Part shown: piece by piece, positions 569-19,042 of the stretch
How positions within the stretch are numbered: position 1 is the stretch's first letter
Layout: each line of letters opens with the position of its first letter
NCBI GenBank assembly: GCA_025358575.1
Contig: JANYJA010000252.1
Coordinates: 1 to 35,959, forward strand
DNA from: Terriglobia bacterium
GTDB lineage: Bacteria; Acidobacteriota; Terriglobia; Bryobacterales; Bryobacteraceae
Length of the DNA stretch: 35,959 bases
Direction: 5' to 3'
The notes under the pieces: generated by a model
What the model saw: the letters and a program-made list of their open reading frames with translations, nothing else
The model's database searches: none
What the model was told of the DNA's origin: nothing
Translations under genes and position numbers: made by a program

Positions 569-691
569 GACGCAAATTTTGGAATCATTAACCGGTGTCC
601 GCGAAACTACTTGGTTGTATTTACAAGGCAACCTTCTCATGGAAATCGCGGACGGTTGAGACCGCGGATGGCTCGGGCAAGAAATGTTTCC

Positions 692-718
692 TAAAGTTTC
701 CGGAATCTCAGCCGATCT
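692..718 (+). promoter_or_regulatory. Sigma-28 (FliA) promoter upstream of the sigma-54 activator
   Basis: TAAAGTTT at 692-699 is identical to the enterobacterial sigma-28 -35 octamer. After exactly 11 bases, GCCGATCT at 711-718 matches the -10 octamer GCCGATAA at six of eight positions. The expected start of transcription, near 725, gives a leader of about ten bases before the ATG at 735. The site lies inside the longer open frame that begins at 684, which favours 735 as the true start. Confidence 0.65.
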
Positions 719-734
719 TTCAACAAGAGCAAAC

Positions 735-3479: not shown

Positions 3480-3483
3480 CCGT

Positions 3484-4230: not shown

Positions 4231-4257
4231 ATAAGGATTCAACAGTTTGACACTCGT

Positions 4258-5364
4258 TTAGGCAGCGGCGCTCGCCTGCTTCCGCCCCCCGTTCAGCGCG
4301 AGGTCGACAATGCGCTGAACCGTGGCCGGTTCCAGGTCTTCCGGAATCTGCTGCCCGGTGGTGATGAACGAGACCGGTTGCTGGCAGAGGGCCGCCGCGC
4401 TAAACATGGCTCCAAACGACTCTGTGCCATCAATTCCGGTAAAGATGAATTTGCTGGGCCGGAAGATCCGATAGCGTTCCATGGCACTTCTTATATCGGC
4501 CAATTTCATATCCACACTTAGAGCTAAATGAACATCCACGTCGTTTCTTTCGGCGAAATAGCGGGCCAATTCAGTGCCCTCCTCCATTTCGGCGCGGCCT
4601 AAACCCGCTGTGTCGATAAAAGTGAGCCCTCCGCCGCGTTCGGAATCGAGTTCTTGCGCCAGGCTCGGGACGGTATTGACCGCTTGGAACCGGATGCCCA
4701 AAATAGCGGCATACACCCGCATCTGGTCGGCGGCGGCGATCCGCAGCGTATCCGTGGACAAAACGCGGACCGGCACGCGCCCGGCAATGCCGTATCGAGC
4801 GGCTAGTTTAATCAAAGTAGTGGTCTTGCCCCGGCCCGGAGGACCCACTAGAGCGACAATCCGTGACGATTGCCCTTCACGGCCCAATCGGGAATCCACC
4901 TTTATGCGAAGGCTCATTTCAGCGATCAGCGCATTCTGCAGCCGCACTCGTGAGTGATCGCCGCGCGCGCGCTCGGAGACAGAGTGAAGCAGATCGCGAG
5001 CTACCTCACCGTCGATTTCCTGGGCGTCTAGCGTATGTTGGATCTCGGCCAGTTCGGGGGACACGTCGGGAGCGTTGGGAGCGGACAGATTGGCATTTGC
5101 GATTGCAGTCCGGATACCGGCAAGTTGCGAGCGAATGTCGGCAAACTGACTGTGATCCGCCGAAGGAGCGCGCCCGATAGGGTGCCGGACCGGTTCCGCA
5201 ATTCCCGCCGAGTCTTCGGCGAAGACGACTTCGTACTGCCCCAAATGCAGGGATTCCGACGGTGACTTCCGAGACGATACCAGCATCGCTTCCGGACCCA
5301 ATTCCTTGCGCGCAAGTGCCATCGCCGCTTCCACGCTGCTTGAGAAATAGCTTTTTAGATACAT
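4258..5364 (-). CDS. flhF: Flagellar biosynthesis GTPase FlhF
   Basis: FlhF (368 aa) is an SRP-type GTPase that fixes flagellar position and number at the cell pole. The N-terminus has the typical YFSSSVEAAMALARKELG segment and a variable B domain. The NG domain has the P-loop GPPGRGKT (about 174-181), the DTLRIAAADQ switch (about 205-214) and DTAG (251-254). The guanine-specificity motif, usually TKLD in FlhF, reads TGID (309-312) and so lacks the lysine. AGGAGA lies upstream of the ATG. The partner ATPase gene flhG, which commonly follows flhF, is absent; fliA comes next. Confidence 0.92.
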   Translation of the reverse strand: MYLKSYFSSSVEAAMALARKELGPEAMLVSSRKSPSESLHLGQYEVVFAEDSAGIAEPVRHPIGRAPSADHSQFADIRSQLAGIRTAIANANLSAPNAPDVSPELAEIQHTLDAQEIDGEVARDLLHSVSERARGDHSRVRLQNALIAEMSLRIKVDSRLGREGQSSRIVALVGPPGRGKTTTLIKLAARYGIAGRVPVRVLSTDTLRIAAADQMRVYAAILGIRFQAVNTVPSLAQELDSERGGGLTFIDTAGLGRAEMEEGTELARYFAERNDVDVHLALSVDMKLADIRSAMERYRIFRPSKFIFTGIDGTESFGAMFSAAALCQQPVSFITTGQQIPEDLEPATVQRIVDLALNGGRKQASAAA

Positions 5365-5380
5365 GCCGTTTGGTCTCCTG

Positions 5381-7468
5381 TTACTGAATGACTCCGAGTG
5401 ACTGCACTTTCACGCCGGCCGGAATTTCGTTGTGCGACAGGAAAAAAAGATTCCAGACGGTTGGTTCCAATAATTGGCGCAGAAAATATCGCGCCGCCGA
5501 ACTTGTGATTGCAACTAAAGGCGCTTCGGCCACGCCCACGACGCGAGTAACTTTGTTAATGATTTCTCGAAGGCTCTGCGGCGAGAGCGCCACATGACTA
5601 TTCAATTCGCCGTGCTCAATGGCCGATTCCACGATCTGCTCGATCGCGGGATCGAGAAAATACGCCGGCAGATCGCCGCTCGCGTTCAAATAGGGATTAA
5701 CCATGGACCGGCGGATCGACTGCCGCACGAACTCCGTCAGAAGCACGGGGTTGCGGGTTGTCCCCGCAGCTTCACCCAGCGACTCTAGAATGGATACGGC
5801 ATCGCGAATGGTCACCCGCTCCCGGAGCAGATTCTGCAACACGCGCTGCACCGTGGCTAGAGGAACCAGTTTGGGCACCAAATCCTCCACCACTTTCGGA
5901 TTTTCAATGGCCACACGGTCGAGAAGCCGCTTGGCGTCCTGCCGCGAGAAAATTTCGTGGGCGTGGCGCCGGATCAACTCCCCCAAATGAGTGCCCAAAA
6001 CGCTGACGGAATCGACTACCGTGTATCCCAAAGAGCGCGCGTGCTCAGATCGTTCGACCGGTATCCACCAGGACGGCATCCCGAACGCCGGGTCCTGAGT
6101 TTTTACTCCCTCTAGTGGCGTTTCGATGCGGCCCACGGGAATCGCCAGGTCGCTCCCAGCCGGAAGTTCAAAGCGCGCGATTTCACTACCCTTGAGAGAA
6201 ATCACGTATTCGCGGGCACGGAGCGAGAGATTGTCGGTAACTCGAACCGGCGGCAGCAGATAGCCCAAGTCCCGCGCTAGCTGCTTGCGGATTCCAGAGA
6301 TTCGTCGCAAGAGGGGCGAGTTTTGAGCGCCTTCCACAAACTGAACCAGTCCCAGACCCACTTCTACAGCCAGGGGTTCCACGCGCAGCAGTGATTCCAC
6401 GTTGTCTTTTGCCGCCGTGACGGGCTTCTCGGCTTCGGTTTGCTTCTCCTCTTTGAGCGCCTTCTGGCGCATGTTCCAGGCCGCGTATCCGAGGCCGCCG
6501 CCCAGCACTAGAAAAGGGATCTTGGGAAGGCCTGGGAATGCGGCGAGCGCGATCAAAACACCGGCTGAAAGGAACAGCGGTTGCGGGGATCCGAAGAGCT
6601 GCTTTTGAAAATCGGCGCCGAGGCGCGACTCGGAACTGGCCCTGGTGACAATCAAGCCCCCCGAAATGGAGATCATCAGAGCCGGAATCACGGTGACTAA
6701 CCCGTCGCCAATGGTCAACACACTGTAGGTCTGGAGAGCGCGCAGCAAGTCGGTTCCGTGCTGGAAAACGCCGATCAGAAAGCCGGCGATGATGTTGATG
6801 CCCGTGATCAGGATGCTGGCTATGGCATCCCGCTGGGTGAAACGCGAAGCGCCGTCCATGGCACCGTAAAATTCGGCTTCGGCCGCGAGTTGTTTGCGGC
6901 GACGCCGCGCTTCGGCCTCGTCCACCAGCCCTGAGTTCAAGTCCGAATCGATGGACATCTGCTTGCCGGGGAGCGCGTCCAATGTGAAACGCGCCGTGAC
7001 TTCCGAAATTCGAACTGCGCCATGGTTGATCACCACGTATTGAATGGCGATCAGCACCAAGAAAATCACGGCGCCGATGATGTAATTGCCGCCCACGACG
7101 AAGTTCCCGAATGCCTGGATTACGTCTCCAGCGGCGGACGTCCCAGTGTGCCCGTTGAGCAGAATCAGTCGGGATGATGAGATGTTCAGCGCCAGGCGGA
7201 ACAGGGTGAGCAGGAGCAAAGTGGTGGGAAAGACATTAAATTCCACGGGCCGCGTGATGTACATTGCCACCATCATCACGATCACCGACATCATAATGTC
7301 CGTGACGATCAGCAGATCGAGCAAGAAACCGGGCAATGGCGTGATGAGGGCAACCACAATCGCTAGAACCGCAATGGGGACGCCTAACTCGCTTAGACCA
7401 GAGAGGGGAAATCCCGCAAATGTGCGACCGGCGGTAAGGGGGAGGGTTAACGCTTTCGATTCTGACAT
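5381..7468 (-). CDS. flhA: Flagellar export gate protein FlhA
   Basis: FlhA (695 aa, normal length) forms the nonameric ring of the type III export apparatus. Residues 1-310 contain the membrane segments and the FHIPEP signature, seen as VTARFTLDALPGKQMSIDSD with the conserved DEAEARRRRKQL loop after it. The cytoplasmic export-substrate docking domain occupies the rest, including SVLGTHLGELIRRHAHEI and LLRERVTIRDAVSILESL. It lies between flhB and flhF in the export operon with short gaps (12 and 16 bases). Nothing in the sequence is anomalous. Confidence 0.97.
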   Translation of the reverse strand: MSESKALTLPLTAGRTFAGFPLSGLSELGVPIAVLAIVVALITPLPGFLLDLLIVTDIMMSVIVMMVAMYITRPVEFNVFPTTLLLLTLFRLALNISSSRLILLNGHTGTSAAGDVIQAFGNFVVGGNYIIGAVIFLVLIAIQYVVINHGAVRISEVTARFTLDALPGKQMSIDSDLNSGLVDEAEARRRRKQLAAEAEFYGAMDGASRFTQRDAIASILITGINIIAGFLIGVFQHGTDLLRALQTYSVLTIGDGLVTVIPALMISISGGLIVTRASSESRLGADFQKQLFGSPQPLFLSAGVLIALAAFPGLPKIPFLVLGGGLGYAAWNMRQKALKEEKQTEAEKPVTAAKDNVESLLRVEPLAVEVGLGLVQFVEGAQNSPLLRRISGIRKQLARDLGYLLPPVRVTDNLSLRAREYVISLKGSEIARFELPAGSDLAIPVGRIETPLEGVKTQDPAFGMPSWWIPVERSEHARSLGYTVVDSVSVLGTHLGELIRRHAHEIFSRQDAKRLLDRVAIENPKVVEDLVPKLVPLATVQRVLQNLLRERVTIRDAVSILESLGEAAGTTRNPVLLTEFVRQSIRRSMVNPYLNASGDLPAYFLDPAIEQIVESAIEHGELNSHVALSPQSLREIINKVTRVVGVAEAPLVAITSSAARYFLRQLLEPTVWNLFFLSHNEIPAGVKVQSLGVIQ

Positions 7469-7480
7469 GTTGAAATCCGG

Positions 7481-8548
7481 TTACCGTCCGGGCATCTTGC
7501 CGTGCATCAGCCGATAGATGTATGCCAGAATCTCGGCCACGGCACGATAGAGATGCGCGGGGATCTCCTGACCCACATCGACTGATTTATAGAGTGCCTG
7601 GGCGAGCAGGGGGTTCTCTATGATCGGGACCTGATTTTCGATGGCGCGCGTCCGAATGCGCAGGGCCAGATAGTTTTTGCCTTTCGCTACCACGAGCGGC
7701 GCCGCCATGGACTCCATCTGGTACCGGATGGCAATGGCGTAGTGGGTCGGATTCACGACGACAGCCGTGGCCGTGGCCACTTCCTTCATCATATTGCGCC
7801 GCCGCAGATCGCGCTGCAGACGGCGAACCCTCTGCTTGATCTGCGGGTTCCCGTCGGTCTCTTTGGCTTCGTCCTTGATTTCGTTTTTGCTCATGCGCAG
7901 ATCTTTGGCATATCGCAGACGTTGGCGGAACAGGTTGACTAAACCAAACACCAGAAACGTGGTGGCACCGCGCCAGAGTAGCTCTTGGATGGAACTCGCA
8001 ACCACGCGCACCCCGCCCTGAACACTTTGCAGCGGCAGGAAAAAGAAGTCCGTCATCTTGCTTTTCGCGATGGCATAGACGACGTAACCGAAGACCGGCA
8101 GCAGAATCACGGCCTGGATTAGCGCAGGCAAATTCTGCTTTGGCAATTCCCGAATTTTCGACATGAAACTGAGCCGCTTCAGGTCCGGTGTGAGCTTCGC
8201 CAGGCTCACGCCCAGCTTGCTCGCGAGTAACTGCATGGCAAGAGTCACCGTCAGCAAAATAGCGCCGGCCAGAAGGAGCGGCATTACGCTTTGCACGGCA
8301 ACCCACCAGCACAAGCTAATCCACGCGGTCGCGGAAAGCTCTCCCGTAAACGCGCGCTGCAGGATATAGCGGGTTACACTCTGAGTTTGGGAAAACCAGC
8401 GGCCTCCCCACGACCCCAAAATGGCGACGAAGGTTATGAACTGAACCGCGCTCACAAAGTCTTTTGCCGCCGGGAAATTGCCCTCTTTGCGCGCTTTATC
8501 AACGCGTCGAGGAGTGGCTTTCTCGGTCTGCTGGCTTTTGTCCGCCAT
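7481..8548 (-). CDS. flhB: Flagellar export switch protein FlhB
   Basis: FlhB (355 aa) is the membrane and cytoplasmic subunit that switches export from hook to filament substrates. The N-terminus KSQQTEKATPRRVDKARKEG is diagnostic, four membrane segments follow, and the self-cleavage site NPTH is intact at about residues 266-269 (VVVNPTHYAIAIRY). Autocleavage at NPTH, together with the FliK encoded upstream in the same operon, would set hook length. The gene starts one base after the fliR stop codon. Confidence 0.97.
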   Translation of the reverse strand: MADKSQQTEKATPRRVDKARKEGNFPAAKDFVSAVQFITFVAILGSWGGRWFSQTQSVTRYILQRAFTGELSATAWISLCWWVAVQSVMPLLLAGAILLTVTLAMQLLASKLGVSLAKLTPDLKRLSFMSKIRELPKQNLPALIQAVILLPVFGYVVYAIAKSKMTDFFFLPLQSVQGGVRVVASSIQELLWRGATTFLVFGLVNLFRQRLRYAKDLRMSKNEIKDEAKETDGNPQIKQRVRRLQRDLRRRNMMKEVATATAVVVNPTHYAIAIRYQMESMAAPLVVAKGKNYLALRIRTRAIENQVPIIENPLLAQALYKSVDVGQEIPAHLYRAVAEILAYIYRLMHGKMPGR

Positions 8549-8549
8549 T

Positions 8550-9338
8550 TCAGTGGATCAGCGCCTCCGGGCGGTTCAGCAGGCGTGTCGCTTCGATCAT
8601 ATGACCGGCGTAATCGGTAAACACTCTGGGATAAATCGCCGCCAGCCACGCCAGCAGCGCCAGTGCCACTAGCATCTTGATCGGAAAGGAAAGCGAAAGA
8701 AGTTGCATTTGGGTATTCAACCGCCCGAGCAGCGCGAGGGTCAGGTCCACCAAGCCCAGCAGTGCCACCGCCGGCAACGCCAGCCGCAGACCTACCGAGA
8801 ACATGCCCGATCCGAGCAGAACAAAAGCTTCCGCCGCGTGGTGCGAGATGGTGAAATTTCCGGGCGGGAACGATTGCAGGCTGGCGGCGAAGGCGCGCAA
8901 CACTTCACGGTCGAGTCCGATGGAGAAAAACATCATTCCGGCGGCAAGCTGCGCGAACACCAGCAGCACTCCCGAATCCGCCTGGGTCGAAGGATCGATG
9001 GTGGACGCGTATCCGTATCCAGCCTGCAGACCCGTGATCTGTGCCGCCATTTGCAGGGCCTCGATTACGAACGCGACGGCCAAGCCGATCGAGATCCCAA
9101 TGGCAGCTTCCAGCAACAAGTAACCCGCCAACCGGCCAATGCTCTCCGAAACGCCTTCCACTTGCGGCCATTGACCGAACAGCGCGATGGTGATCGAGAC
9201 CGCCAGCACCACGCGCACCATTTCGGGACCATTTTTGATGCCGGGAAGGGGCACGAAAGCGAACGTGCCCGCCACGCGCGCCAGCACAAACAGAAAACCA
9301 AAGAGCGTCGAGATGTCGATCGAGAAATTAGCCGGCAT
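8550..9338 (-). CDS. fliR: Flagellar export gate protein FliR
   Basis: FliR (262 aa) is a core inner-membrane component of the export gate with FliP and FliQ. The sequence is strongly hydrophobic with about six membrane segments and shows family landmarks such as FVLARVAGTFAFVPLPG and LQAGYGYASTIDPSTQADSG. The order fliP-fliQ-fliR-flhB is the conserved export order and supports the assignment. The gene begins three bases after the fliQ stop. Confidence 0.95.
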   Translation of the reverse strand: MPANFSIDISTLFGFLFVLARVAGTFAFVPLPGIKNGPEMVRVVLAVSITIALFGQWPQVEGVSESIGRLAGYLLLEAAIGISIGLAVAFVIEALQMAAQITGLQAGYGYASTIDPSTQADSGVLLVFAQLAAGMMFFSIGLDREVLRAFAASLQSFPPGNFTISHHAAEAFVLLGSGMFSVGLRLALPAVALLGLVDLTLALLGRLNTQMQLLSLSFPIKMLVALALLAWLAAIYPRVFTDYAGHMIEATRLLNRPEALIH

Positions 9339-9341
9339 GCT

Positions 9342-9611
9342 TCACTGGGCGTAGCGGCCAAGATCGCTCAGTATGGCGGCCGTGTAGAACATCATTTTCT
9401 TCAACATCCAGGGCATCAGGAGAAGCAATCCGGCGAGGAACGCAACCAGACGCGGAATGGCGCTGAAGCCGGTATCTTGAATCGACGTAACGATTTGAAC
9501 CAAGCTGATCGCGATCCCGGCGATGAAGCCGATGGCAAGAATTGGCGCACTTAGCCAGAACGCCGTCAGGAAGGCGTCGCGGATGATTTGAACTACTGTT
9601 TCCGGTGTCAT
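9342..9611 (-). CDS. fliQ: Flagellar export gate protein FliQ
   Basis: FliQ (89 aa, the family length) has two membrane helices with the characteristic AFWLSAPILAIGFIAGIAIS and IQDTGFSAIPRLVAFL segments. I start at 9611 because its ATG overlaps the fliP stop codon (ATGA) and GAAGAG lies seven bases upstream; a longer frame to 9650 runs inside fliP. It assembles with FliP and FliR to form the helical export pore. Confidence 0.95.
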   Translation of the reverse strand: MTPETVVQIIRDAFLTAFWLSAPILAIGFIAGIAISLVQIVTSIQDTGFSAIPRLVAFLAGLLLLMPWMLKKMMFYTAAILSDLGRYAQ

Positions 9612-10339
9612 GCCAAGCTCTTCATTAGCGAGCCGACTACCAGGCTCCATCCATCCACTAGCACGAACAGCAGAATCTTGAAGGGTGCCGAGATCATGAC
9701 CGGAGGCAACTGCACCATGCCAATGGACAGGGTTACGGAAGCGACTACAATGTCGATAATCAGAAAAGGCAGGAACAGAACGGCGCCAATCTGAAAAGCC
9801 GCCTTCAGTTCCGAAATGATGTACGCCGGCACCAGGACTTTCAAATCCAGATCGGCTGGGGAGCGTGGCGCGGGTGTCTTCGAAATCTCGAGAAACAAGC
9901 GCACATCTTTCTCTCGCGCGAACTTCATAAGAAAAGTACGCAGCGGCTTCGAGCCTTCGTCAAAACCCTGCTGCATGTTCATGTGGCCTTGCTCGACTGG
10001 CTGCCACCCCTTCTGATAAATTTCAGTGGCGACGGGCTGCATGATCAGCACGGTGAGGAACATGGAAAGTCCAATCAAGACTTGGTTAGATGGCGTGGCT
10101 TGTGTTCCCAACGCCTGCCGCAGGAAGTGCAGCACGATGGCAATTCGGAGAAATGGGGTGATCGACATGATCGCCGCCGGCAGAACGGTGAGCACCGTAA
10201 GCAGAATGACAATCTGCATGGGCGCGCTCACCGATGTCCCGTTTGTGGTCAGGCCAGGAAACGGCGCGGCGGGAGACGCGGCGGGAACTGTACGGGCGAA
10301 GAGAAGGAGCAATATGCCGAGGCACCTGGCTGGCCGCAT
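9608..10339 (-). CDS. fliP: Flagellar export gate protein FliP
   Basis: FliP (243 aa) carries an N-terminal cleavable signal peptide (MRPARCLGILLLLFARTVPA), typical for this subunit, and conserved segments such as TPFLRIAIVLHFLRQALG, TPSNQVLIGLSMFLT and SELKAAFQIG. Start 10339 overlaps the fliO stop by one base (TGATG), which favours it over the more distal in-frame start at 10447. It is the central component of the FliPQR export gate. Confidence 0.95.
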   Translation of the reverse strand: MRPARCLGILLLLFARTVPAASPAAPFPGLTTNGTSVSAPMQIVILLTVLTVLPAAIMSITPFLRIAIVLHFLRQALGTQATPSNQVLIGLSMFLTVLIMQPVATEIYQKGWQPVEQGHMNMQQGFDEGSKPLRTFLMKFAREKDVRLFLEISKTPAPRSPADLDLKVLVPAYIISELKAAFQIGAVLFLPFLIIDIVVASVTLSIGMVQLPPVMISAPFKILLFVLVDGWSLVVGSLMKSLA

Positions 10340-10623
10340 CACGTGCCTAATTCCTGTCGCGGTGCGTTCACCGAGCTCTCCAGCAATTGACAACTGGAGG
10401 GCGCAGTGCCGATCAAGACCGTGCGCTCCCCGATGCGCACCAGGCACAAGGTGTGGTGCGGCGTTAAGCTGAGGCGTTCAATCACCTGAATCTGCTTCGG
10501 CGAACCCGGCTTGAACAATCGCCCCGAGAAACGCGCCTTTCCACCCCGCTGCAAGAGCCAGAGCGCGGCTGCAAATAGAACCATCACGGCGCAAACAATG
10601 CTGATCTGTTTCGCAATATCCAT
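10339..10623 (-). CDS. fliO: Flagellar assembly protein FliO
   Basis: This short protein (94 aa) has one membrane helix (about residues 8-25), followed by a basic linker and a small beta domain (IQVIERLSLTPHHTLCLVRI, then ERTVLIGTAP). That pattern is characteristic of FliO, which helps FliP assemble. Its place between fliN and fliP is the canonical one. FliO proteins diverge widely, so context contributes much to the call. Confidence 0.88.
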   Translation of the reverse strand: MDIAKQISIVCAVMVLFAAALWLLQRGGKARFSGRLFKPGSPKQIQVIERLSLTPHHTLCLVRIGERTVLIGTAPSSCQLLESSVNAPRQELGT

Positions 10624-10626
10624 GCT

Positions 10627-10875
10627 TCACTCTTCAATCTTGAAATCGGTGATGCGAAAACCTATTGTGTTCTCAATGATCACGATTTCTCCGTAACCGA
10701 TCAGAGTGGTTTCGACGTAGATGTCGATGTGCTCGCCCGCGGAGCGCTGCATCACGATGACGCTCCCCACGTCCAGCATCAGAATTTCGCGAATCGGCAT
10801 CGCCCGCCGGTCGAGCTCGGCGATCACCTGCACACTGACGTCGGCGATGGGCGCGATCTCTTGGAGCGGGGTCAT
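10627..10875 (-). CDS. fliN: Flagellar motor switch protein FliN (short form)
   Basis: The product (82 aa) is a nearly bare SpoA/FliN domain: VSVQVIAELDRRAMPIREIL, then LDVGSVIVMQ, then GEIVIIENTIGFRITDF. FliN builds the lower C-ring and binds export chaperone complexes. It lacks the N-terminal extension of about 50 residues found in enterobacterial FliN. GAGG lies just upstream of the ATG. The larger SpoA protein encoded at 2544-3479 may share or divide the role. Confidence 0.9.
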   Translation of the reverse strand: MTPLQEIAPIADVSVQVIAELDRRAMPIREILMLDVGSVIVMQRSAGEHIDIYVETTLIGYGEIVIIENTIGFRITDFKIEE

Positions 10876-10886
10876 AACGCCTCAAC

Positions 10887-12149
10887 TTACTGCTTGATGT
10901 TGATGGTCTCCTGGCTCAATTGGTCCTCGGTGGTGATTACTTTGGCATTAGCCTGGTAGCCGCGCTGCAGCACAATCAGATTAGTGAACTCGCGAGCGAT
11001 GTCCACTGTGGAAGATTCGAGCGAACCGCCCGCGACCTTTCCGCGCCCCCCGGTGTCGGCCACGCCGATGCTAGGCAAGCCGGTTTTCTCACTCTGCTTC
11101 AGGTTGCCGCTTCCGACGCCTACAAGCGTGTCGGGGTTGCGGATGGAAGCCAGCGCCACTTGCGCGATGGTTTTCTCCTGGCCATTGGAATATTGGGCCA
11201 CAATCGCGCCGCCGTCCTGCATCGCCACCTTCACTAGCTGCGCGGCGACAGTTCCGTCTTGTGAATTTCCGGATGTTGCCGAGGTCTGAGCAAACTGACT
11301 GAGCAAAGCGTTACTCTTGCTGTCGTACAGGTCCCAGTTGATGCTTAAGTCGGCCGCGCCGTCCGCCAAACCTGTCATTGGAACCGGAACACCGGCCGGG
11401 GCCGCGACAGTGGGGGCGGCCGGGGTAATCAACTTTCCGAACGAATCGAAGGTAAGCGTTCCCGTGGCGAGCGAAGACGGGGTGCCAGCCGTGCCGCCGG
11501 TCAGATCGCTGCCGGAAACCGTCACGCCATACGACCAGGCATTGATGCCGGTCTTGGTGAACGTGATGGTGAGGTCGTGAGTGGTGCCCAGCGAATCCAC
11601 AACCTGCATCGGGGCCGAAAAGGTGCCGCTTGTGGCTCCGACCGTGGCCGAGGCATCCAGGTTCAAATTGAGCGAAAACTTGGTGGTTGCAAACGCCTGG
11701 CGCAGCGTTCCGGTCGGGAGAATAATGTCACCGACAGGGCCATTCGTATTGACGTTTCCGGTGGGGTCCGCCCATCCCTGAACGTGCTCGCCCGTGAGGG
11801 TTTGCAGCACGCCGCTGCTGTCTACCACAAACTTTCCGCCGCGCGTGAAAAGCTGGTTGTTGTTTTTGTCTTTGAGGACAAAGAAGCCGTCGCCCTGAAT
11901 GGCCGCATCAAGAGAACCCGAGCTGGTCTGTACCGCGCCCTGCGAGAATTGCTGAATGATCGTGGGCCGGGAAACACCGAACCCGGGATCCGGCGAGCTC
12001 CCGAATGCCTCGCTCACCAGATCGTGAAATGCGGTTTCAGAAGCTTTGAATCCTGAAGTATTCAGGTTCGCGAGATTGTTGCTGACCACATCCAAAGCGG
12101 TTGAATCGGCGCTCAGTGCGGATAGTGCGGTAGAAAAAGACGTGAACAT
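10887..12149 (-). CDS. flgE: Flagellar hook protein FlgE
   Basis: FlgE (420 aa, close to the enterobacterial length) polymerises into the hook. The N-terminal rod/hook helix (FSTALSALSADSTALDVVSN, NLANLNTSGFKASETAFHDL) and the C-terminal helix (EFTNLIVLQRGYQANAKVIT) flank a Gly/Thr/Ala-rich surface domain. The pattern GDGFFVLKD is the conserved D1 element. GGGGAA precedes the ATG. It follows flgD, its capping protein, 28 bases downstream. Confidence 0.95.
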   Translation of the reverse strand: MFTSFSTALSALSADSTALDVVSNNLANLNTSGFKASETAFHDLVSEAFGSSPDPGFGVSRPTIIQQFSQGAVQTSSGSLDAAIQGDGFFVLKDKNNNQLFTRGGKFVVDSSGVLQTLTGEHVQGWADPTGNVNTNGPVGDIILPTGTLRQAFATTKFSLNLNLDASATVGATSGTFSAPMQVVDSLGTTHDLTITFTKTGINAWSYGVTVSGSDLTGGTAGTPSSLATGTLTFDSFGKLITPAAPTVAAPAGVPVPMTGLADGAADLSINWDLYDSKSNALLSQFAQTSATSGNSQDGTVAAQLVKVAMQDGGAIVAQYSNGQEKTIAQVALASIRNPDTLVGVGSGNLKQSEKTGLPSIGVADTGGRGKVAGGSLESSTVDIAREFTNLIVLQRGYQANAKVITTEDQLSQETINIKQ

Positions 12150-12177
12150 TATTTCCCCTTTATCGATTTGGCTCTAA

Positions 12178-12489
12178 CTATTGCGCTGGCGGCGTGACCG
12201 TAACCGGTGGATTGGTAACCGGCGGGATGACGGTCGGAGACTGCAATTTTCCGACACCTTGGTTGATTCCGATCAATTGCTCGAGTTCGCTATATTGCGT
12301 GAGTTGGCCGACAAATTGCGTGCTGTCCGTCGGATTGGTCGGGTCCTGATTCTTGATTTGGGCGACTAGCAGTTTCAAAAATGTGTCCTTGCTAGTGAGC
12401 GCATCGGACGCAGGCTTGGCTGGCGCGGCTATGCTGGCGGCGGTGCTTCCGGGGTAAAGAGACGTTATGGGATTGGCGATTGAACTCAT
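12178..12489 (-). CDS. flgD: Short hook-cap protein FlgD (N-terminal domain only)
   Basis: The protein is 103 residues and matches the FlgD N-terminal export and assembly region (SKDTFLKLLVAQIKNQDPTN, then STQFVGQLTQYSELEQLI). It then ends in a Pro/Thr/Val-rich tail. The Ig-like and Tudor-like C-terminal domains of longer FlgD proteins (about 220-230 aa) are missing, and the 28 bases before flgE leave no room for them. GGAG lies eight bases upstream of the ATG. It is needed to start hook assembly. Short FlgD forms exist in other phyla, so this may be natural. Confidence 0.88.
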   Translation of the reverse strand: MSSIANPITSLYPGSTAASIAAPAKPASDALTSKDTFLKLLVAQIKNQDPTNPTDSTQFVGQLTQYSELEQLIGINQGVGKLQSPTVIPPVTNPPVTVTPPAQ

Positions 12490-12506: not shown

Positions 12507-13673
12507 TTAGTCTTCAAACCTGCGATTCATTTCTTCCAGCCACTGCGGTTTTTGTTGACGCGATTGCTGCTGCTCGTCGGACTCGCGTCTTGGTTCCCGG
12601 TTACCGCCTTCGTGGTCCCGGCCACCCGAGAATTGTTGGGAGTCACGCGCCTGGTCGCTCTCCGAAGCCGCGTTGACGGTGCTGGCCGCCTTCCAGGTTT
12701 CGGTCTGGAAGCCGCTTCGCTCCAGCCGGTTCACCAGATCCCCGAGACCATCCCGCAGATCTCGCGTCAATTGCGCGTCAGCCGCATGGACGGCGACACG
12801 GAGATCGCCGCCCCGGTCTGAAAGGCGCACTTCCACGCGCTCCTGGTTTTGATCGGTCAGACGCAGCGCGATGTCGCGAAGCGGCTCCGGACGGGTAGGT
12901 TCGAGCGTTGTTGAACTCTCGGCAGCCAGTGCAGTGGCAATGTTTTTCGAAAGCGAGACCGTTCCCGTGGCGGACGTTCGCGGCGTCGAGTCAACCGGCC
13001 CCAGGGTCGAATGGGTGAGGGTGACAGGGGCTTCCGGAGCGGCAGGTACCGCGGCAGCCGCTTTTTCGCGAAGCTCGATGGTTGGCGGGTTCGCGGCACC
13101 TTCTTTATGGGTATCGGGAGTGGGTTTGGCAGCGGCGTTCGTGGGGACAGCCCGGGCGGGCGTCGGATCGGCCTTCCGATCCGTAAGGCGAGCGGCGAAT
13201 GCCAGTTCCGGAGTTCGCGGGGCCGCCGCTTCGAAATCCGGCTTGGCGGAAGCCGCTCGTCCGGCTAACCGCAGATCTGGAGCGGGGCGGTCCACTTTGA
13301 TTCCTGGGCCCTTTGGAGCGTCCTGGTCACCGCCGCTCGGCGCGGCCCATGTGAATGGAAGATGAATCGGAGGCAGCGCCGGACCCTGCGGCACCGGCAA
13401 AACAACAGCAACGCCGGTTTGCAATTCGGGTGCTTCGCAGGTTTTGGCGCGAGGCTTCTTATCGGGGGTTGCTCCGGCAGGAGTACCCGGTTCGAGCTTT
13501 TCCAGAGGAATCGTCTCAGCGAGCACCTGCCGAAACATGTCCTCTTTTTTTTCTCCTGGCAAGTCCACTGTGAGTCCCGGTTCGGGCGCACCCGCTGCGA
13601 ATCGATGGGGCAGCCCGTGCGTCCCGCCGCCCAACTTCGCCCCGGTCTGTGGTTGATGAACCGCAATTGTCAC
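12507..13673 (-). CDS. fliK: Flagellar hook-length control protein FliK
   Basis: FliK (388 aa from a GTG) is a long Pro/Ala-rich, low-complexity protein followed by the conserved core near residues 270-335 (EVRLSDRGGDLRVAVHAADA, then LVNRLERSGFQTETW) and a basic, Gln/Arg-rich tail. It is the secreted ruler that triggers the FlhB switch. The start is uncertain. A sigma-54-like element at 13687-13701 would place transcription near 13675, too close for a ribosome site at the GTG; an ATG at 13538 preceded by AAGAGG is an alternative. It heads the minus-strand operon before flgD and flgE, the usual context. Confidence 0.88.
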   Translation of the reverse strand: MTIAVHQPQTGAKLGGGTHGLPHRFAAGAPEPGLTVDLPGEKKEDMFRQVLAETIPLEKLEPGTPAGATPDKKPRAKTCEAPELQTGVAVVLPVPQGPALPPIHLPFTWAAPSGGDQDAPKGPGIKVDRPAPDLRLAGRAASAKPDFEAAAPRTPELAFAARLTDRKADPTPARAVPTNAAAKPTPDTHKEGAANPPTIELREKAAAAVPAAPEAPVTLTHSTLGPVDSTPRTSATGTVSLSKNIATALAAESSTTLEPTRPEPLRDIALRLTDQNQERVEVRLSDRGGDLRVAVHAADAQLTRDLRDGLGDLVNRLERSGFQTETWKAASTVNAASESDQARDSQQFSGGRDHEGGNREPRRESDEQQQSRQQKPQWLEEMNRRFED

Positions 13674-13686
13674 AGCTCCCGTAAGG

Positions 13687-13701
13687 GCAGATAGGAAGCC
13701 A
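13687..13701 (-). promoter_or_regulatory. Sigma-54-like -24/-12 element facing fliK
   Basis: On the minus strand the 15 bases read TGGCTTCCTATCTGC. The GG and GC dinucleotides are ten bases apart, as sigma-54 requires, and TGGC and TGC match the consensus TGGCACG-N4-TTGC. The predicted start of transcription is near 13675. This is a pattern match only. Confidence 0.35.
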
Positions 13702-13742
13702 AAGGAAATCCTTCGGAATTCAAGCGTTTACCGAACCGGCCC

Positions 13743-13760
13743 TCGCCAATTAAATGGCGA
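13743..13760. repeat. Perfect inverted repeat TCGCCA-N6-TGGCGA
   Basis: A perfect 6-base inverted repeat with an ATTAAA centre sits in the fliK-flgF gap. It could be a protein-binding site or a small hairpin. No T-run follows on either strand, so it does not look like a terminator. Confidence 0.4.
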
Positions 13761-13777
13761 TGCGGTCGGCGTGACAA

Positions 13778-13794
13778 ATTTCCGTCGCGGAAAT
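13778..13794. promoter_or_regulatory. Perfect inverted repeat ATTTCCG-TCG-CGGAAAT, candidate activator site
   Basis: A perfect 7-base inverted repeat is centred at 13786. The centre is about 104 bases from the predicted flgF sigma-54 start and about 111 bases from the fliK one. This is a normal distance for an enhancer-binding protein site serving two divergent promoters. The sigma-54 activator at 735-2135 is the natural candidate binder; that link is inference. Confidence 0.4.
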
Positions 13795-13863
13795 CGCCTT
13801 TAGTTCAGCCGCTAATCGACCGTGTCCCTCGAAGTTTGAATACTTTACAACGAGATGCGGAAT

Positions 13864-13878
13864 CGGCTGCCCGCTTGC
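13864..13878 (+). promoter_or_regulatory. Sigma-54-like -24/-12 element facing flgF
   Basis: The 15 bases CGGCTGCCCGCTTGC, followed by A, carry GGC at -24 and TTGCA at -12, with ten bases between GG and GC. The expected start near 13890 gives a leader of about 12 bases to the flgF ATG at 13902. This also argues against the longer frame beginning at 13836. Confidence 0.45.
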
Positions 13879-13901
13879 ATTTAAAATCGCGAGTCATCAC
13901 C

Positions 13902-14651
13902 ATGGACCCTCTTTCAATTTCGGCGGCAAGCGGCTTGCGCGCCCGTATGGAATCTCTTGAGCTGCTGGCCAACAACATCGCCAACGCATCCACCGACGGT
14001 TTCAAGAGTGACCGGGAATTTTACAGCCTTTATGTGTCGCCCGAAGCGGCGGACGCCGGCGCCTCCGGATATGGAGCATCCCCCGACACGCTTCCAGTAA
14101 TTGAAAAGCCCTGGATTGACTACGCGCAAGGAACCCTTCGGTCCACCGGCAATCAATTCGATCTGGCTTTATCCGGAAAGGGCTTCTTCTCGGTCAATGG
14201 GCCTTCGGGACCGCTATACACTCGCAGCGGAAATTTTCAGCTTTCTTCAGCCGGCATTCTTACGACCGCTGAAGGCTACGCCGTCCGAACCGCTGACGGG
14301 GGCACCCTCGCCGTGCAAACCGGCAGTCCTATTGAGGTGGCGCGCGACGGAAATGTCCGCCAGAATGGCCAGGATCTGGGACAGCTTGCGGTGGCGTCAT
14401 TCAATGAACAAGCCGATTTGAATAAGCAAGGCATGAATTATTTTTTCAAGACCGACCCAAAAACACCCGTTCAAACCTCCACCGCGGAGGTGCAGCAGGG
14501 CAGTCTCGAAAAATCCAATGTGGGGTCAGCCGAGTCGGCCGTCCGGCTGGTCAGCATCATGCGCCAATTTGAAATGTTGCAAAAAGCCGTGACGATTGGC
14601 GCGGAAATGAACCGCCACGCCGTGGAAGAAGTCGCGCGAGTCACTTCTTAA
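13902..14651 (+). CDS. flgF: Flagellar rod protein FlgF
   Basis: The product (249 aa) belongs to the rod/hook family. It has the N-terminal helix (SISAASGLRARMESLELLAN, NIANASTDGFKSDREFY), the D1 signature GKGFFSVNGPSGPLYTRSGN and the C-terminal helix (SAESAVRLVSIMRQFEMLQK). The SIMRQFEMLQKA variant of the C-terminal motif and the position before flgG point to FlgF, a proximal rod subunit. I start at MDPLS (13902) rather than 13836 because the upstream bases hold the sigma-54-like element. It is the first gene of the plus-strand operon. Confidence 0.9.
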   Translation: MDPLSISAASGLRARMESLELLANNIANASTDGFKSDREFYSLYVSPEAADAGASGYGASPDTLPVIEKPWIDYAQGTLRSTGNQFDLALSGKGFFSVNGPSGPLYTRSGNFQLSSAGILTTAEGYAVRTADGGTLAVQTGSPIEVARDGNVRQNGQDLGQLAVASFNEQADLNKQGMNYFFKTDPKTPVQTSTAEVQQGSLEKSNVGSAESAVRLVSIMRQFEMLQKAVTIGAEMNRHAVEEVARVTS

Positions 14652-14664
14652 AAGGAAAAAAACT

Positions 14665-15192
14665 ATGATCCACCCTCTACATCGCCGCGCCGAACCCGCT
14701 GCACAGCCCCACCGGACGGATATCGCGCGCACCACGGGCGCTAATGTTTCGCGATCTTCATTCGCGGACTTATTCGAGCACGCTACCGCTCCCACAGGTG
14801 CGACCCCGGCGGCTGCTACCCCGGCTGCCGTCGATCCTGCACCGGCGAAGGCTACTACAATGCCCACGCCCCATTATGAGGACGTGCGTGTCTATGGTCT
14901 CGACGGATCGGTTTCATCATCGAATCCACTCGAGTTCGCAACCACGGGCACGGCCGATGCCATGGCCGCCAAATTGGGCGGGAAAGTCCAAGACGCCGTG
15001 ATGGCCGGGGAGTTCTACCGAACCGCGCCCGAGCGACTGATCGTGGGCGCGGGCGCGAATCCCCTGAATGCCGGTTTAGTTGCGGACTTGTTTCAAAAGT
15101 ACGGCGACGCTCCCGGGAGCCAAGCCTGGAAGGTGATCAACCGCGATCTGGGCCGCCCTGAAATGTCCACAACACCCATTGTTACTACGTAA
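14665..15192 (+). CDS. Uncharacterised protein encoded between flgF and flgG
   Basis: I do not recognise this 175-residue product. Residues 1-70 are Ala/Pro/Thr-rich and probably disordered. Residues about 70-175 look folded (HYEDVRVYGLDGSVSSSNP, then AAKLGGKVQDAVMAGEFYRT, then GANPLNAGLVADLFQKYGD). It has no signal peptide, membrane segment or cysteine. AAGGA lies eight bases upstream, and the gene sits in line with flgF (13-base gap) and flgG (18-base gap), so it is surely co-transcribed. A role in rod assembly, as an export substrate with a disordered N-terminus or as a chaperone, is a guess from context. Confidence 0.8.
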   Translation: MIHPLHRRAEPAAQPHRTDIARTTGANVSRSSFADLFEHATAPTGATPAAATPAAVDPAPAKATTMPTPHYEDVRVYGLDGSVSSSNPLEFATTGTADAMAAKLGGKVQDAVMAGEFYRTAPERLIVGAGANPLNAGLVADLFQKYGDAPGSQAWKVINRDLGRPEMSTTPIVTT

Positions 15193-15210
15193 ATTCATAA
15201 AGGTGAACTT

Positions 15211-16002
15211 ATGATTCGAGCACTCTACAGCGCCGCCAGCGGCATGACCGCGCAGCAACTCAACGTCGACAACATCGCCAACAATCTGGCAAATGCGAAT
15301 ACGCTGGGCTACAAAATGCGGCGGGCCCAATTCCAGGATCTGATGTATCAGGATATGGTGACGCCAGGCGCGTCGGCCGGCTCACAAACCGTAGTTCCCA
15401 CCGGTTTGCAGATCGGCTTGGGAGCGCGCACCGCCTCGAACGAGATCATCTTCACGCAAGGCAGTTTCTCGCTGACCGATAATCCGCTGGATATGGTGAT
15501 CCAGGGGCGCGGCTTTTTCCAGATACGGAGGCCTAGCGGGGAGTTGGCGTACACGCGCGCAGGCGCTTTCCATCTGGACCGTGACGGCAACATGGTCACG
15601 TCCGATGGCGATCCGCTGGAGCCTCAAATCACTATTCCGCCGGGCGCGGGGGGCGTTACCATCGCGACCGATGGCACCGTCAGCTTCTTGCAACAGGGGC
15701 AGACCGCCGCCCAGCTCGCCGGGCAAATTCAGCTGGCCGATTTCCAAAATCCCGCCGGGCTAAACAGCGTGGGCCGTAATCTCTACCTGCCCACGGATGC
15801 ATCGGGCCAGGCTACGGTTGGCAATCCGGGAGGGCAGGAAGGTCTCGGGTCGCTTCTCCAGGGCTACACGGAACAGTCAAATGTCAGCGTGGTGGAAGAA
15901 TTCGTAAACCTGATTCTCGCTCAACGCGCCTACGAGGCCAACTCGAAAGTAGTCAAGGCCGCCGATGAGATGTACCAGCAGATCAACAACCTGACGCGAT
16001 GA
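15211..16002 (+). CDS. flgG: Flagellar distal rod protein FlgG
   Basis: FlgG (263 aa, typical length) has the diagnostic N-terminus MIRALYSAASGMTAQQLNVD and the family phrase NIANNLANANTLGYKMRRA, the FlgG-specific segment TGLQIGLGARTASNEIIFTQ, the D1 motif GRGFFQIRRPSGELAYTR and the C-terminus (VEEFVNLILAQRAYEANSKV). It builds the distal rod, which passes through the P and L rings. AAAGGTGA gives a strong ribosome site. Its stop overlaps the flgA start by ATGA. Confidence 0.97.
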   Translation: MIRALYSAASGMTAQQLNVDNIANNLANANTLGYKMRRAQFQDLMYQDMVTPGASAGSQTVVPTGLQIGLGARTASNEIIFTQGSFSLTDNPLDMVIQGRGFFQIRRPSGELAYTRAGAFHLDRDGNMVTSDGDPLEPQITIPPGAGGVTIATDGTVSFLQQGQTAAQLAGQIQLADFQNPAGLNSVGRNLYLPTDASGQATVGNPGGQEGLGSLLQGYTEQSNVSVVEEFVNLILAQRAYEANSKVVKAADEMYQQINNLTR

Positions 16003-16913
16003 TAATCGCCCTGTTTTTTACTTTCGCGGCAATCGCGGCCAGTGCCGCATGCCACCCGGTGGAGGGAGAGCGCATTACCTCCCGCGACCTGGCCGCTGCC
16101 GATTCGCGCTTGTCCTCGCTTCCCGAGACTGCGGAACTGGGCTTTGCGCCGGTGCCGGGTATGCGCCGGATGGTTCACGCCATCGAGTTGTCCCGATTGG
16201 CCGCGCGCTTCGGCGTTCCTTCGGACGGCTTCTCGGATTTGTGCTTCGAACGCCCAGTCCACCCGCTCGACCCCGGGGAACTTGTTTCGGCGATGCAGTC
16301 GGCGCTCGGGATCGCCAGCGCCCACATTGAAACTGTCGATCTCATGCGATACCCCGTGCCTGCTGGCACAATCGAGTTTCCCAGAACCGGACTGACCACA
16401 CCGCCTCCCGCAAGCCCGAAGATCGCGGTGCTCTGGCGAGGGCACATCTTAACCGCTAGCGGTCGCCGTTTTCCTATATGGGCACGCGTCAAGATTGAGG
16501 CAACCGTAAACCGCCCCGTCGCCGTGGTTGATCTGCGACCGGGCGTGGAACTGAAAGCGGGACAGGTCCGCATCGAAGCCAGCACCGGCTTCCCGGATGG
16601 GCCATCGGCAGGCAACGCAGTCGAAGATCTTATAGGGCGCATGCTGGTGCGTTCGGTTCAGGCCGGCGCCGTCATCCCGCCATCGGCCTTTGCACTTCGA
16701 TCCAAAGAGGCGGCAGGCGATGTGGCTCGTGGCGACCGCGTTACCGTGAGCGTTCAGGAAGGCGGAGCTCATCTGCAGTTTGAAGCGCGATCCGAAGCCC
16801 CGGGGAAACTCGGGCAGACCATTCCAGTGCGGAACATTACGAGCGGAAAGACTTTTATGGCGCAGGTATCCGGTAAGGGAAAAGTGAGCGTTGGAGACAC
16901 CCTGCGACCATGA
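15999..16913 (+). CDS. flgA: Flagellar P-ring assembly chaperone FlgA
   Basis: The product (304 aa) has an N-terminal signal peptide (IIALFFTFAAIAASAAC). Its C-terminal half shows the SAF/FlgA domain (PVAVVDLRPGVELKAGQVRI, then GRMLVRSVQAGAVIPPSAF, then GDRVTVSVQEGGAHLQFEA, ending IPVRNITSGKTFMAQVSGKG). FlgA is a periplasmic chaperone for FlgI. It is longer than the 220-aa enterobacterial protein because of an extra N-terminal region. It overlaps flgG and flgH by ATGA on both sides. Confidence 0.9.
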   Translation: MIIALFFTFAAIAASAACHPVEGERITSRDLAAADSRLSSLPETAELGFAPVPGMRRMVHAIELSRLAARFGVPSDGFSDLCFERPVHPLDPGELVSAMQSALGIASAHIETVDLMRYPVPAGTIEFPRTGLTTPPPASPKIAVLWRGHILTASGRRFPIWARVKIEATVNRPVAVVDLRPGVELKAGQVRIEASTGFPDGPSAGNAVEDLIGRMLVRSVQAGAVIPPSAFALRSKEAAGDVARGDRVTVSVQEGGAHLQFEARSEAPGKLGQTIPVRNITSGKTFMAQVSGKGKVSVGDTLRP

Positions 16914-17602
16914 AAATTGCGCTTCTCGCCGCAGCCGCCCTGCTAGTCGCTTCCGGCTTGGACGCCAAAAAGAGAGAAAAGGTGCATACCCCATCGCCGC
17001 TGGATGAGTACGTAAAGGATGCGGTTCATCGCTCCGATACTAATGAAGCCTCTTCCCCGGGCTCACTATGGTCGCCGGGCTCGCGGTTGGGCAATCTCGG
17101 GAGCGATCTTCGCGCCAGCCAGATTGACGACTTGCTGACTATTGTAGTGTCCGAAAACGCCTCGGCCGTCGCCAATGGAACCACCAAAACAGCCCGAACG
17201 TCCAGCGCTAAAAATTCCATCACAGCCCTCGCGGGACCCACAAAAGTCGCGGGCCGTCTCGCCGATCTCACGAGTCTTTCAGGACAGTCCAGCTTGGCTG
17301 GCCAGGGCACCACGACGCGTTCCACCACTTTGTCCGCGACTCTTACAGCTCGCGTTGTGCAGACGCTTCCGAACGGTTATCTGGTAGTCGAAGGCACAAA
17401 AAACGTGCTGGTCAATTCAGAGCATCAGCTAATCACCGTGCGCGGAGTGGTGCGTCCCGAAGATATCACCACGAGCAACCAGGTCAACTCGTCGCGCATC
17501 GCCCAACTCGAAGTGAATATCAGCGGAAAAGGTGTCATCAATGATTCGGTTCGGCGTCCCATGTTCCTCTATCGTCTATTGCTGGGCCTGTTGCCTTTCT
17601 AA
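16910..17602 (+). CDS. flgH: Flagellar L-ring protein FlgH (no lipobox cysteine)
   Basis: The product (230 aa) matches FlgH from about residue 50 onward (SLWSPGSRLGNLGSDLRASQ, IDDLLTIVVSENASAVANG, TARVVQTLPNGYLVVEGTKN, GVVRPEDITTSNQVNSSRIA). FlgH forms the outer-membrane L-ring. It is usually a lipoprotein, but the signal sequence here (MKIALLAAAALLVASGLDAK) has no cysteine, and I see none in the whole protein. Anchoring must therefore differ. It follows flgA by an ATGA overlap. Confidence 0.92.
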   Translation: MKIALLAAAALLVASGLDAKKREKVHTPSPLDEYVKDAVHRSDTNEASSPGSLWSPGSRLGNLGSDLRASQIDDLLTIVVSENASAVANGTTKTARTSSAKNSITALAGPTKVAGRLADLTSLSGQSSLAGQGTTTRSTTLSATLTARVVQTLPNGYLVVEGTKNVLVNSEHQLITVRGVVRPEDITTSNQVNSSRIAQLEVNISGKGVINDSVRRPMFLYRLLLGLLPF

Positions 17603-17612
17603 ACGTGCCCGC

Positions 17613-18710
17613 ATGAAGCCCCTTGCACTGCTGCTCAGTTTGCCGCTCTTCAATTTCACCGCTTCTGGCGCGACCCGTCTCAAAGACCTGGTCAACTTCG
17701 AAGGCGTGCGCGATAACCAGCTTCTCGGGTACGGCCTCGTAGTGGGACTGGCCGGCACGGGCGACCGCAGGCAGAGTGTCTTCCCAGTGCAGAGCTTGAC
17801 CAATTTGCTGGAGCGCATGGGAGTTTCGGTACAGCCCAACTCGCTCACAGTAAAGAACACCGCCGCCGTTATGGTGACCGCGACGCTCCCCCCTTACGCG
17901 CAACCTGGAACCCGAATCGATGTAACCGCCGCCGCGCTGGGCGATGCTCCTAATCTTCAAGGTGGATTGCTGGTTTTAACGAGTCTGCGCGGGGTAAATG
18001 GCCAGGTTTACGCCGTGGCCCAAGGCGCGGTAGTCACCGGCGGGTTTTCCGTGGGTAAGACAGGCAATGGCCAGACCGTGAATCACCCCACTGTAGGACG
18101 AGTACCGAACGGAGCCATTGTGGAGCGTGCGCCACCTTCGGTAGACCCAGGAAATCACGTAGCCTTGCAGTTGCGCGAGGCTGACTTCACAACTTCCGCT
18201 CGCATCGCCGAAGCCGTGAACAAGAAATTCGGCGCGGATCAAGCCACTCCAGCTCATGCGGAAAACGCCGCGCTGGTGCGCGTTGTGGTCCCGAAGCTCT
18301 ATTTCAATCGCAATACGGAGTTTATGGCGGAGCTTGAGAACATTACCGTCGAAGTGGATCGCCCCGCGAAAATCGTGGTCAACGAACGCACTGGGACCAT
18401 CGTGCTTGGCAAGGACGTCCATATCCGCCCGGTGGCGATTCTGCATGGCAATCTGACGGTTGAAATCCAGACGAGTTTTGCGGTTTCGCAGCCGCCCGCT
18501 CTTTCGACCGGAACCACGGAAGTGGTTCCCCAGGTTGCCGTCGGCGTCAAGGATGAAAAAGCTCGCAATATAGTCCTGAAGGACGGTGCCACAGTCGACG
18601 AATTAGTCCACGCCCTGACCGCAATCGGGTCTACAGCGCGGGATATTATCGCCATTCTGGAGAATCTTCGTGCCGCGGGGGCGCTCGAAGCGGAATTGGA
18701 GGTTATCTAG
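17613..18710 (+). CDS. flgI: Flagellar P-ring protein FlgI
   Basis: FlgI (365 aa, family length) begins with a signal peptide (MKPLALLLSLPLFNFTASG) followed by the conserved TRLKDLVNFEGVRDNQLLGY and GLVVGLAGTGD. The C-terminus has the usual KDGATVDELVHALTAIG and RDIIAILENLRAAGALEAEL. A longer frame to 17532 overlaps flgH and would hide the signal peptide, so I start at 17613. FlgI forms the periplasmic P-ring around the rod with help from FlgA. Confidence 0.95.
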   Translation: MKPLALLLSLPLFNFTASGATRLKDLVNFEGVRDNQLLGYGLVVGLAGTGDRRQSVFPVQSLTNLLERMGVSVQPNSLTVKNTAAVMVTATLPPYAQPGTRIDVTAAALGDAPNLQGGLLVLTSLRGVNGQVYAVAQGAVVTGGFSVGKTGNGQTVNHPTVGRVPNGAIVERAPPSVDPGNHVALQLREADFTTSARIAEAVNKKFGADQATPAHAENAALVRVVVPKLYFNRNTEFMAELENITVEVDRPAKIVVNERTGTIVLGKDVHIRPVAILHGNLTVEIQTSFAVSQPPALSTGTTEVVPQVAVGVKDEKARNIVLKDGATVDELVHALTAIGSTARDIIAILENLRAAGALEAELEVI

Positions 18711-18712
18711 GC

Positions 18713-19042
18713 ATGAGAATCGAAAGCACCGAGGCTGGCGTTCCCGTTCCAAGCGTGAAACCGGCCCACAAAGACGATCCCCAAAAAGCGGTGGAAGCCG
18801 CGCAGCAGTTCGAGTCGCTCCTTATCGGACAGATGCTGAAGCAGATGCGATCGAGCGGCTCGGAAGGGTGGATGGGAACCGGGGACGATCAAGCCGGGGA
18901 ATCGGCTATGGAGCTGGCCGAGGAACAGCTTGCGCACAGTTTGAGCGCGCAGGGCGGCTTAGGGTTAGCGAAGCTGATCGCCGACGGACTCAACGCGGCA
19001 CCGCGCCACAAAGCCAAAGCCGGCCGTTCGCCCAAATTATAG
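18713..19042 (+). CDS. flgJ: Rod-binding protein FlgJ, N-terminal domain only
   Basis: The product (109 aa) is the rod-binding domain of FlgJ (KAVEAAQQFESLLIGQMLKQ, then AMELAEEQLAHSLSAQGGLG, then LAKLIADGL). The muramidase domain of enterobacterial FlgJ is missing, as in many other bacteria; the separate lytic transglycosylase at 19931-20551 could supply that activity. GGAGGT lies ten bases upstream of the ATG. The stop overlaps the convergent fliS stop by six bases. Confidence 0.9.
   Translation: MRIESTEAGVPVPSVKPAHKDDPQKAVEAAQQFESLLIGQMLKQMRSSGSEGWMGTGDDQAGESAMELAEEQLAHSLSAQGGLGLAKLIADGLNAAPRHKAKAGRSPKL

Follow-up and report, generated by a model that had tools for sequence, protein, structure and literature searches.

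The 228-bp gap between fliK and flgF in this Acidobacteriota bacterium, from which two flagellar operons point outwards, appears to be a shared control hub. We give this reading a probability of roughly 0.75 on sequence grounds; in it, divergent sigma-54 promoters are served by paired enhancer dyads and by an activator that is most likely the product of the gene at 684-2135. Both promoter boxes and both dyads are present in the gap, they are conserved in position among relatives, and the dyads recur at an independent flagellar promoter, that of flgB. Together with the FleQ-box geometry of the dyads and the FleQ-like helix of the candidate protein, this argues for a shared enhancer probably served by 684-2135. 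The features are as follows, with coordinates in the window, that is, the whole stretch of 35,959 nucleotides that was analysed:

684-2135, plus strand: sigma-54 activator with AAA+ and Fis-type domains and a FleQ-like helix-turn-helix, putative dyad binder
2544-12489, minus strand: remaining hook/export run with flgD, flgE, fliO, fliP, fliQ, fliR, flhB, flhA, flhF, fliA and a FliMN_C gene, putatively a single run
12507-13673, minus strand: fliK, a weak Flg_hook match (E 4e-5, under Pfam's own cut-off)
13686-13701, minus strand: -24/-12 element of the fliK-flgD-flgE run, TGGCTTCCTATCTGCC, predicted start at about 13675
13743-13760, no strand assigned: dyad 1, FleQ-box-like, TCGCCAATTAAATGGCGA, rank 8 of 35,942 window positions with a matrix trained on relatives
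13771-13788, no strand assigned: dyad 2, FleQ-box-like, GTGACAAATTTCCGTCGC, rank 2 of 35,942, its centre 28 bp from that of dyad 1
13778-13794, no strand assigned: perfect inverted repeat ATTTCCG-TCG-CGGAAAT, its left half overlapped by dyad 2, not conserved
13864-13879, plus strand: -24/-12 element of the flgF run, CGGCTGCCCGCTTGCA, predicted start at about 13890
13902-14651, plus strand: flgF, which opens the rod/ring run (TIGR02490, 174.9 bits, just under the cut-off of 178.5)
14665-19042, plus strand: remaining rod/ring run with a 175-aa gene, flgG, flgA, flgH, flgI and a rod-binding gene, putatively a single run

The arrangement of hook genes pointing away from flgF is common: by hand count, flgE lies upstream of flgF in this orientation in 29 of 37 fetched loci, and among the remaining eight, L033 and L054 show fliK or flgD, L038, L039, L047 and L050 end too soon, and L067 and L068 show neither flgE nor fliK/flgD upstream of flgF. 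The rod-binding gene is flgJ-like by a weak match, and the 175-aa gene between flgF and flgG (14665-15192) has no Pfam or NCBIfam match at E 0.001. At 3484-5364, fliA directly follows flhF, and fleN/flhG is absent between them.

Conserved divergent sigma-54-type promoter boxes within the gap

The sigma-54 consensus has GG and GC dinucleotides 10 apart within TGGCAC-N5-TTGCW. This GG/GC spacing is exact in both boxes of the gap, on the minus strand from T13701 to C13687 (GG at 13700-13699, GC at 13688-13687) and on the plus strand from C13864 to C13878 (GG at 13865-13866, GC at 13877-13878), and the wider consensus is partly met, with two mismatches in the plus-strand box and more in the minus-strand box. 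The spacing alone is uninformative, as GG-N10-GC occurs 525 times in the window against 512.6 expected. With a sigma-54 weight table, the two boxes score 7.3 and 7.0, which does not reach significance in a single sequence (the maxima of shuffled upstream stretches, each up to 350 bp long, average 5.3, with a standard deviation of 2.9 and a 90% point of 8.9).

Their significance comes from conservation. A box scoring at least 7 with its -12 element 8-31 bp before flgF is found in 27 of 31 relatives from the same family, and an opposite-strand box of this score at 200-223 bp before flgF in 20 of 31; other zones give 0 to 4, and shuffles of the first zone about 0.55 of 31. The divergent promoters are therefore real in an evolutionary sense, which bears out the initial annotation in its proposal of outward-facing sigma-54-type promoters for the hook/export and rod/ring runs; its letters and coordinates for the boxes, an inverted repeat and a 9-mer were likewise all correct. 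The window's own boxes rank among the weaker copies, and those of the nearest relative, L114, score lower still (6.4 and 5.2). The genome encodes rpoN (PF04552, E 2.3e-55). Among loci from other families, both sides carry boxes of 7.8-10.6 in L065 and L066, a single side does in L067, and neither side does in L068.

In 28 of 70 loci, counted by hand, no more than 17 bp separate the flgF-side -12 element from the start of flgF; in four of the 28 the box has a score under 7. At such a distance the predicted transcript would have almost no leader, and for the window (13879-13902) a flgF leader of about 12 bases is predicted. On the other side the start codon of fliK is uncertain, and a GTG at 13673 would leave almost no leader there either.

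A conserved pair of dyads lies between the promoters

A dyad between the promoters was first spotted by eye among matches of the sigma-54 box scan. Gapped palindromes with five-letter half-sites, one free base and gaps of 0-10 were then enumerated in 32 relatives, with the window excluded and L057, the second flgF cluster of genome G015, retained. The leading palindromes were GNCAA-N4-TTGNC (10 of 32, shuffles 0.07) and CGNCA-N6-TGNCG (10 of 32, shuffles 0.2), which are two views of one dyad, with the consensus YGNCAA-N4-TTGNCR in relatives. A symmetric matrix seeded with a consensus that we supplied and trained on 31 relatives, the window unseen, settled on about 59 sites in the 31 sequences, near two per sequence. 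Its top position in the window is 3232-3249, within the FliMN-type gene; taken as a pair, the two dyads of the gap outscore every other pair in the window (26.0, with 16.6 for the runner-up). A profile built on the complete pair was too weak to search a genome with: it found nothing in the organism's own genome, even at the window pair, and within the window a stretch of a flagellar gene, 3209-3250, came out slightly ahead of the pair (E 0.023 and 0.026, respectively).

In held-out loci of the same family (80 loci, from which 16 duplicates and one short one were removed), the pair stands before flgF in 46 of 63; away from these places, the 586,245 bases contain four pairs, and shuffled sequence contains none. 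Over all 95 loci it is present in 70 (23 of them training loci), mostly with a spacing of 28-30 bp. These family counts leave out L047, which is cut by a contig end, L057, and L065-L068 from other families; the latter four loci all lack the pair. Of the 70 loci with the pair, 55 have a plus-side box of at least 7, 53 a minus-side box and 43 both, in zones wider than those of the 31-relative count. The pair is not needed everywhere, since of the 25 loci without it, 21 retain a plus-side box of at least 7 and 15 a minus-side one.

The FlgF search, with a limit of E 1e-20, had a match in 36 of the 61 genomes covered, own genome included. Genome G034 has two flgF clusters (L042 and L043) with the dyad pair in both, and G015 also has two, one cut by the contig end (L047) and one without the pair (L057). 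Two loci, L180 and L167, are titled Bordetella parapertussis and Acidimicrobiia, and their flgF upstream regions are more than 90% identical to those of L055 and L051 from the window's own family; to judge by this identity, they are probably mislabelled MAGs.

The same dyads recur before flgB

The second flagellar contig of the genome, C138, carries two rod genes taken as flgB and flgC, together with fliF, fliG, fliH, fliI, fliD and flagellin. Its flgB loci took no part in matrix training, nor did those of the relatives.

L199 (contig C138), 5839-5985: divergent gap between flgB and fliD, with dyads at 5879-5896 and 5897-5914, 18 bp apart, and a weak -24/-12 element before flgB

This gap holds the best dyad of the contig (17.2). 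Of 30 loci (29 from relatives and one from the own genome), 24 have a dyad of at least 11 upstream of flgB (shuffles 4%), 20 have the best partner dyad at a distance of 17-19 bp, and 26 have a -24/-12 box of at least 7 before flgB (shuffles 8%); the own genome's box scores only 2.1. The nearest dyad is 61.5-66.5 bp from the flgB -12 element in 17 of the 23 loci that have a box of at least 7 and a dyad of at least 6 within 40-130 bp, and in the own genome this distance is 64.5 bp, like that on the fliK side. No other result supports a single operator with a single spacing rule as strongly as the flgB set does.

Spacing is nearly fixed on one side and clustered on the other

The distances from the pair to its two promoters differ. 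Between dyad 1 and the fliK-side -12 element there are 63.5-65.5 bp in 39 of the 53 loci whose minus box scores at least 7, and dyad 2 lies 82-102 bp from the flgF-side -12 element in 49 of 55; equidistance as a design feature of the gap is not supported by these values. Measured from dyad 1, the flgF-side distances of the 55 loci cluster near 106, 116 and 127 bp; outside the clusters are single values of 93.5 and 148.5 and two of 112.5, with none at 108-112 or 118-125. The helical signal in this distance has p 0.004; in the promoter-to-promoter distance, taken over distinct values, it is not significant (p 0.153). The distance classes were defined after the values were seen, and the two 112.5-bp loci fit no class well. 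The classes, when placed on a FlgF tree, require at least 11 changes, a number that is only suggestive because 46 of 92 inner branches are open.

These spacings suggest a need for the pair to present the same side of the helix to the flgF promoter. Going further, we tentatively propose a spacing code for the flagellar regulon of this family, which we regard as possible rather than probable: a box centred about 64.5 bp from the -12 element would make a promoter responsive, pairs 17-19 bp apart would serve one promoter (flgB) and pairs 28-30 bp apart would serve two divergent promoters, and over evolution the spacing between the pair and the second promoter would change in whole helical turns (classes near 95, 106, 116, 127 and 148 bp), which would let a single bound activator complex face both polymerases.

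Candidate activator and alternative readings

The product of 684-2135 is the likely binder of the dyads. It carries the sigma-54 contact motif GAFTGA in its AAA+ domain and can be aligned with FleQ across the recognition helix (LKRTTLAAKVKIFEM versus IRRTTLVEKMRKYGM), where each of the 27 aligned rows has the letters KRTT (of 29 ortholog loci, 26 passed the filter). By eye, one part of it may be receiver-like, with no recognisable phospho-acceptor in the ortholog alignment and no Pfam domain reported in that part. Sequence scores do not place the protein nearer to FleQ than to ZraR or NtrC: among solved structures ZraR comes first and FleQ second, and among NCBIfam models ntrC is best, with all 25 matches shown below their cut-offs.

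The genome has 15 PF00158 matches, 12 of them above 200 bits, and with about a dozen sigma-54 activators in it, 684-2135 is a candidate partner of the dyads among several. Another of them, for example a response regulator of the FlrC, FleR or FlgR kind, could bind the pair, with 684-2135 placed higher in the hierarchy. This number of candidates speaks for such an arrangement, as does the imperfect co-distribution of pair and activator. An ortholog (E below 1e-100) is present in 28 of the 32 family genomes with a flgF match, with a further one, split over two contigs, in G002, and in two of the five family genomes without such a match (G009 and G022); six genomes have the activator and lack the pair by the cut-off (G003, G004, G007, G008, G030 and G033), and G017 has the pair and lacks the activator at E 1e-100. 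Both are absent from G005 and G011, which are sisters in the tree, so that their joint absence counts as at most one event, and co-distribution is weak evidence. However, among nine of the 12 own-genome activators compared at the C terminus, KRTT is found in the recognition helix only in 684-2135 (one other has GRTTL), and in three genomes from another family of the order (G044, G049 and G053), the ortholog lies within 1 kb of flgC. We consider a different partner unlikely and keep 684-2135 as the leading candidate.

Less likely still, the dyads could be repressor operators or repression sites of the FleQ-FleN type and not an enhancer. Precedent for this comes from Pseudomonas, where tandem FleQ boxes are said to mark biofilm promoters that FleQ represses without c-di-GMP, and single boxes flagellar promoters (PMC10723142). 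Against it, most dyads, at flgB as well as at the hub, are found 60-130 bp upstream of the sigma-54 boxes, off the start sites and at positions typical of enhancers, and their distance is nearly fixed at fliK and flgB, so that an activating role appears the better reading.

The initial annotation had placed a shared activator site between the promoters, and a conserved activator-like site does exist there; it lies in the dyad pair and not in the perfect repeat at 13778-13794 that had been named. Its perfect 7-bp arms and central place speak for the repeat, yet we hold it to be very improbable as the site. The repeat is not kept in relatives (8.25 of 14 letters match, against 8.28 in shuffles) and showed no enrichment in the enumeration of gapped palindromes, perfect 7-3-7 repeats are at chance level in the window (two, against 3.05 in shuffles), and as a dyad it ranks 24,870 of 35,942 with the relatives-trained matrix. 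The 9-mer GGAAATCGC, which occurs at 13789-13797 and, as had been pointed out, upstream of the activator gene at 641-649, lies outside the conserved dyad, and 21 of 100 shuffles contain two or more copies; a link through it to the activator's own promoter is not supported. Finally, a reading of the boxes and dyads as matches that arise by chance or from base composition in GC-rich DNA, at which the chance frequency of GG-N10-GC might hint, is contradicted by the zone conservation, the held-out loci and the flgB test and can be neglected.

A model for coupled flagellar expression

With one promoter on each side and a common dyad pair between them, one protein probably switches on both flagellar halves. 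In the model that we favour, sigma-54 RNA polymerase would wait in the closed state at the two outward-facing -24/-12 promoters, one of which would drive fliK-flgD-flgE and the export genes, the other flgF-flgG-flgA-flgH-flgI, each as a putative co-transcribed run. Each dyad would hold one dimer of a sigma-54 activator, for which the FleQ-like 684-2135 protein is the most likely candidate; dimers on both dyads would assemble and use ATP to open both promoters, one at short range and the other at longer range. Opened by one activator, the two promoters would have the hook/export and rod/ring parts made together. As the two runs comprise fliK, flgD, flgE, fliO-P-Q-R, flhB, flhA, flhF and fliA on one side and flgF, flgG, flgA, flgH, flgI and the rod-binding gene on the other, the gap would govern the larger part of the structural programme.

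If this holds, one gap controls most hook, export, rod and ring genes, and a FleQ-type box is seen far from Proteobacteria. The operator would also be known well enough to predict targets, as flgB was found in this way, and the step-like distances would supply natural variants with which to test whether an enhancer acting on two sides is helically phased.

Comparison with known systems

Our literature search, judged by title and start of abstract, returned no study of flagellar sigma-54 control in Acidobacteriota, and among the matches listed there was no report of the operator, the paired geometry or a two-promoter hub in this phylum. Divergent sigma-54 flagellar units (Caulobacter) and FleQ boxes (Pseudomonas) are already known; new, among the matches listed, are the Acidobacteriota operator, its paired geometry and the hub with two promoters.

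A close arrangement is that of flaN/flbG in Caulobacter, reportedly described by Mullin and Newton in 1993 as divergent flagellar sigma-54 units with shared regulatory elements, of which ftr2 and ftr3 lie downstream. In that system the ftr elements go with FlbD. Both cases join divergent flagellar sigma-54 units through shared elements, whereas the genes, the elements, the activator and the phylum are others. In Vibrio cholerae, a putative sigma-54 site directly before flgF is mentioned in one source (PMC7064773); the site there lies between flgE and flgF of a flgBCDE-flgFGHIJ series, whereas here the hook genes point away.

The nearest likeness of the dyads themselves is to the FleQ box of Pseudomonas. 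The P. aeruginosa consensus is printed as GTCaNTAAAtTGAC and the FleQ motif is judged unreliable in two Pseudomonas species (PMC6120874), and FleQ binds a 14-bp dyad with the halves GTCAAT and ATTGAC (PMC10723142). The dyads described here have the same 14-bp layout, with half-sites GNCAA and TTGNC and four bases between them; set against GTCAA-N4-TTGAC, dyad 1 reads GCCAATTAAATGGC and dyad 2 GACAAATTTCCGTC, and in the family consensus, GNCAA-N4-TTGNC, the second base of the half-site is free. The boxes are paired here, at flagellar genes, whereas pairs in Pseudomonas are said to mark biofilm promoters (PMC10723142). There FleQ works with FleN, whereas in the window flhF and fliA are direct neighbours with no fleN between them. 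Common to both systems are flagellar sigma-54 promoters and an activator with AAA+ and Fis-type helix-turn-helix domains; a receiver-like part that lacks a phospho-acceptor may, to judge by eye, be common to both as well.
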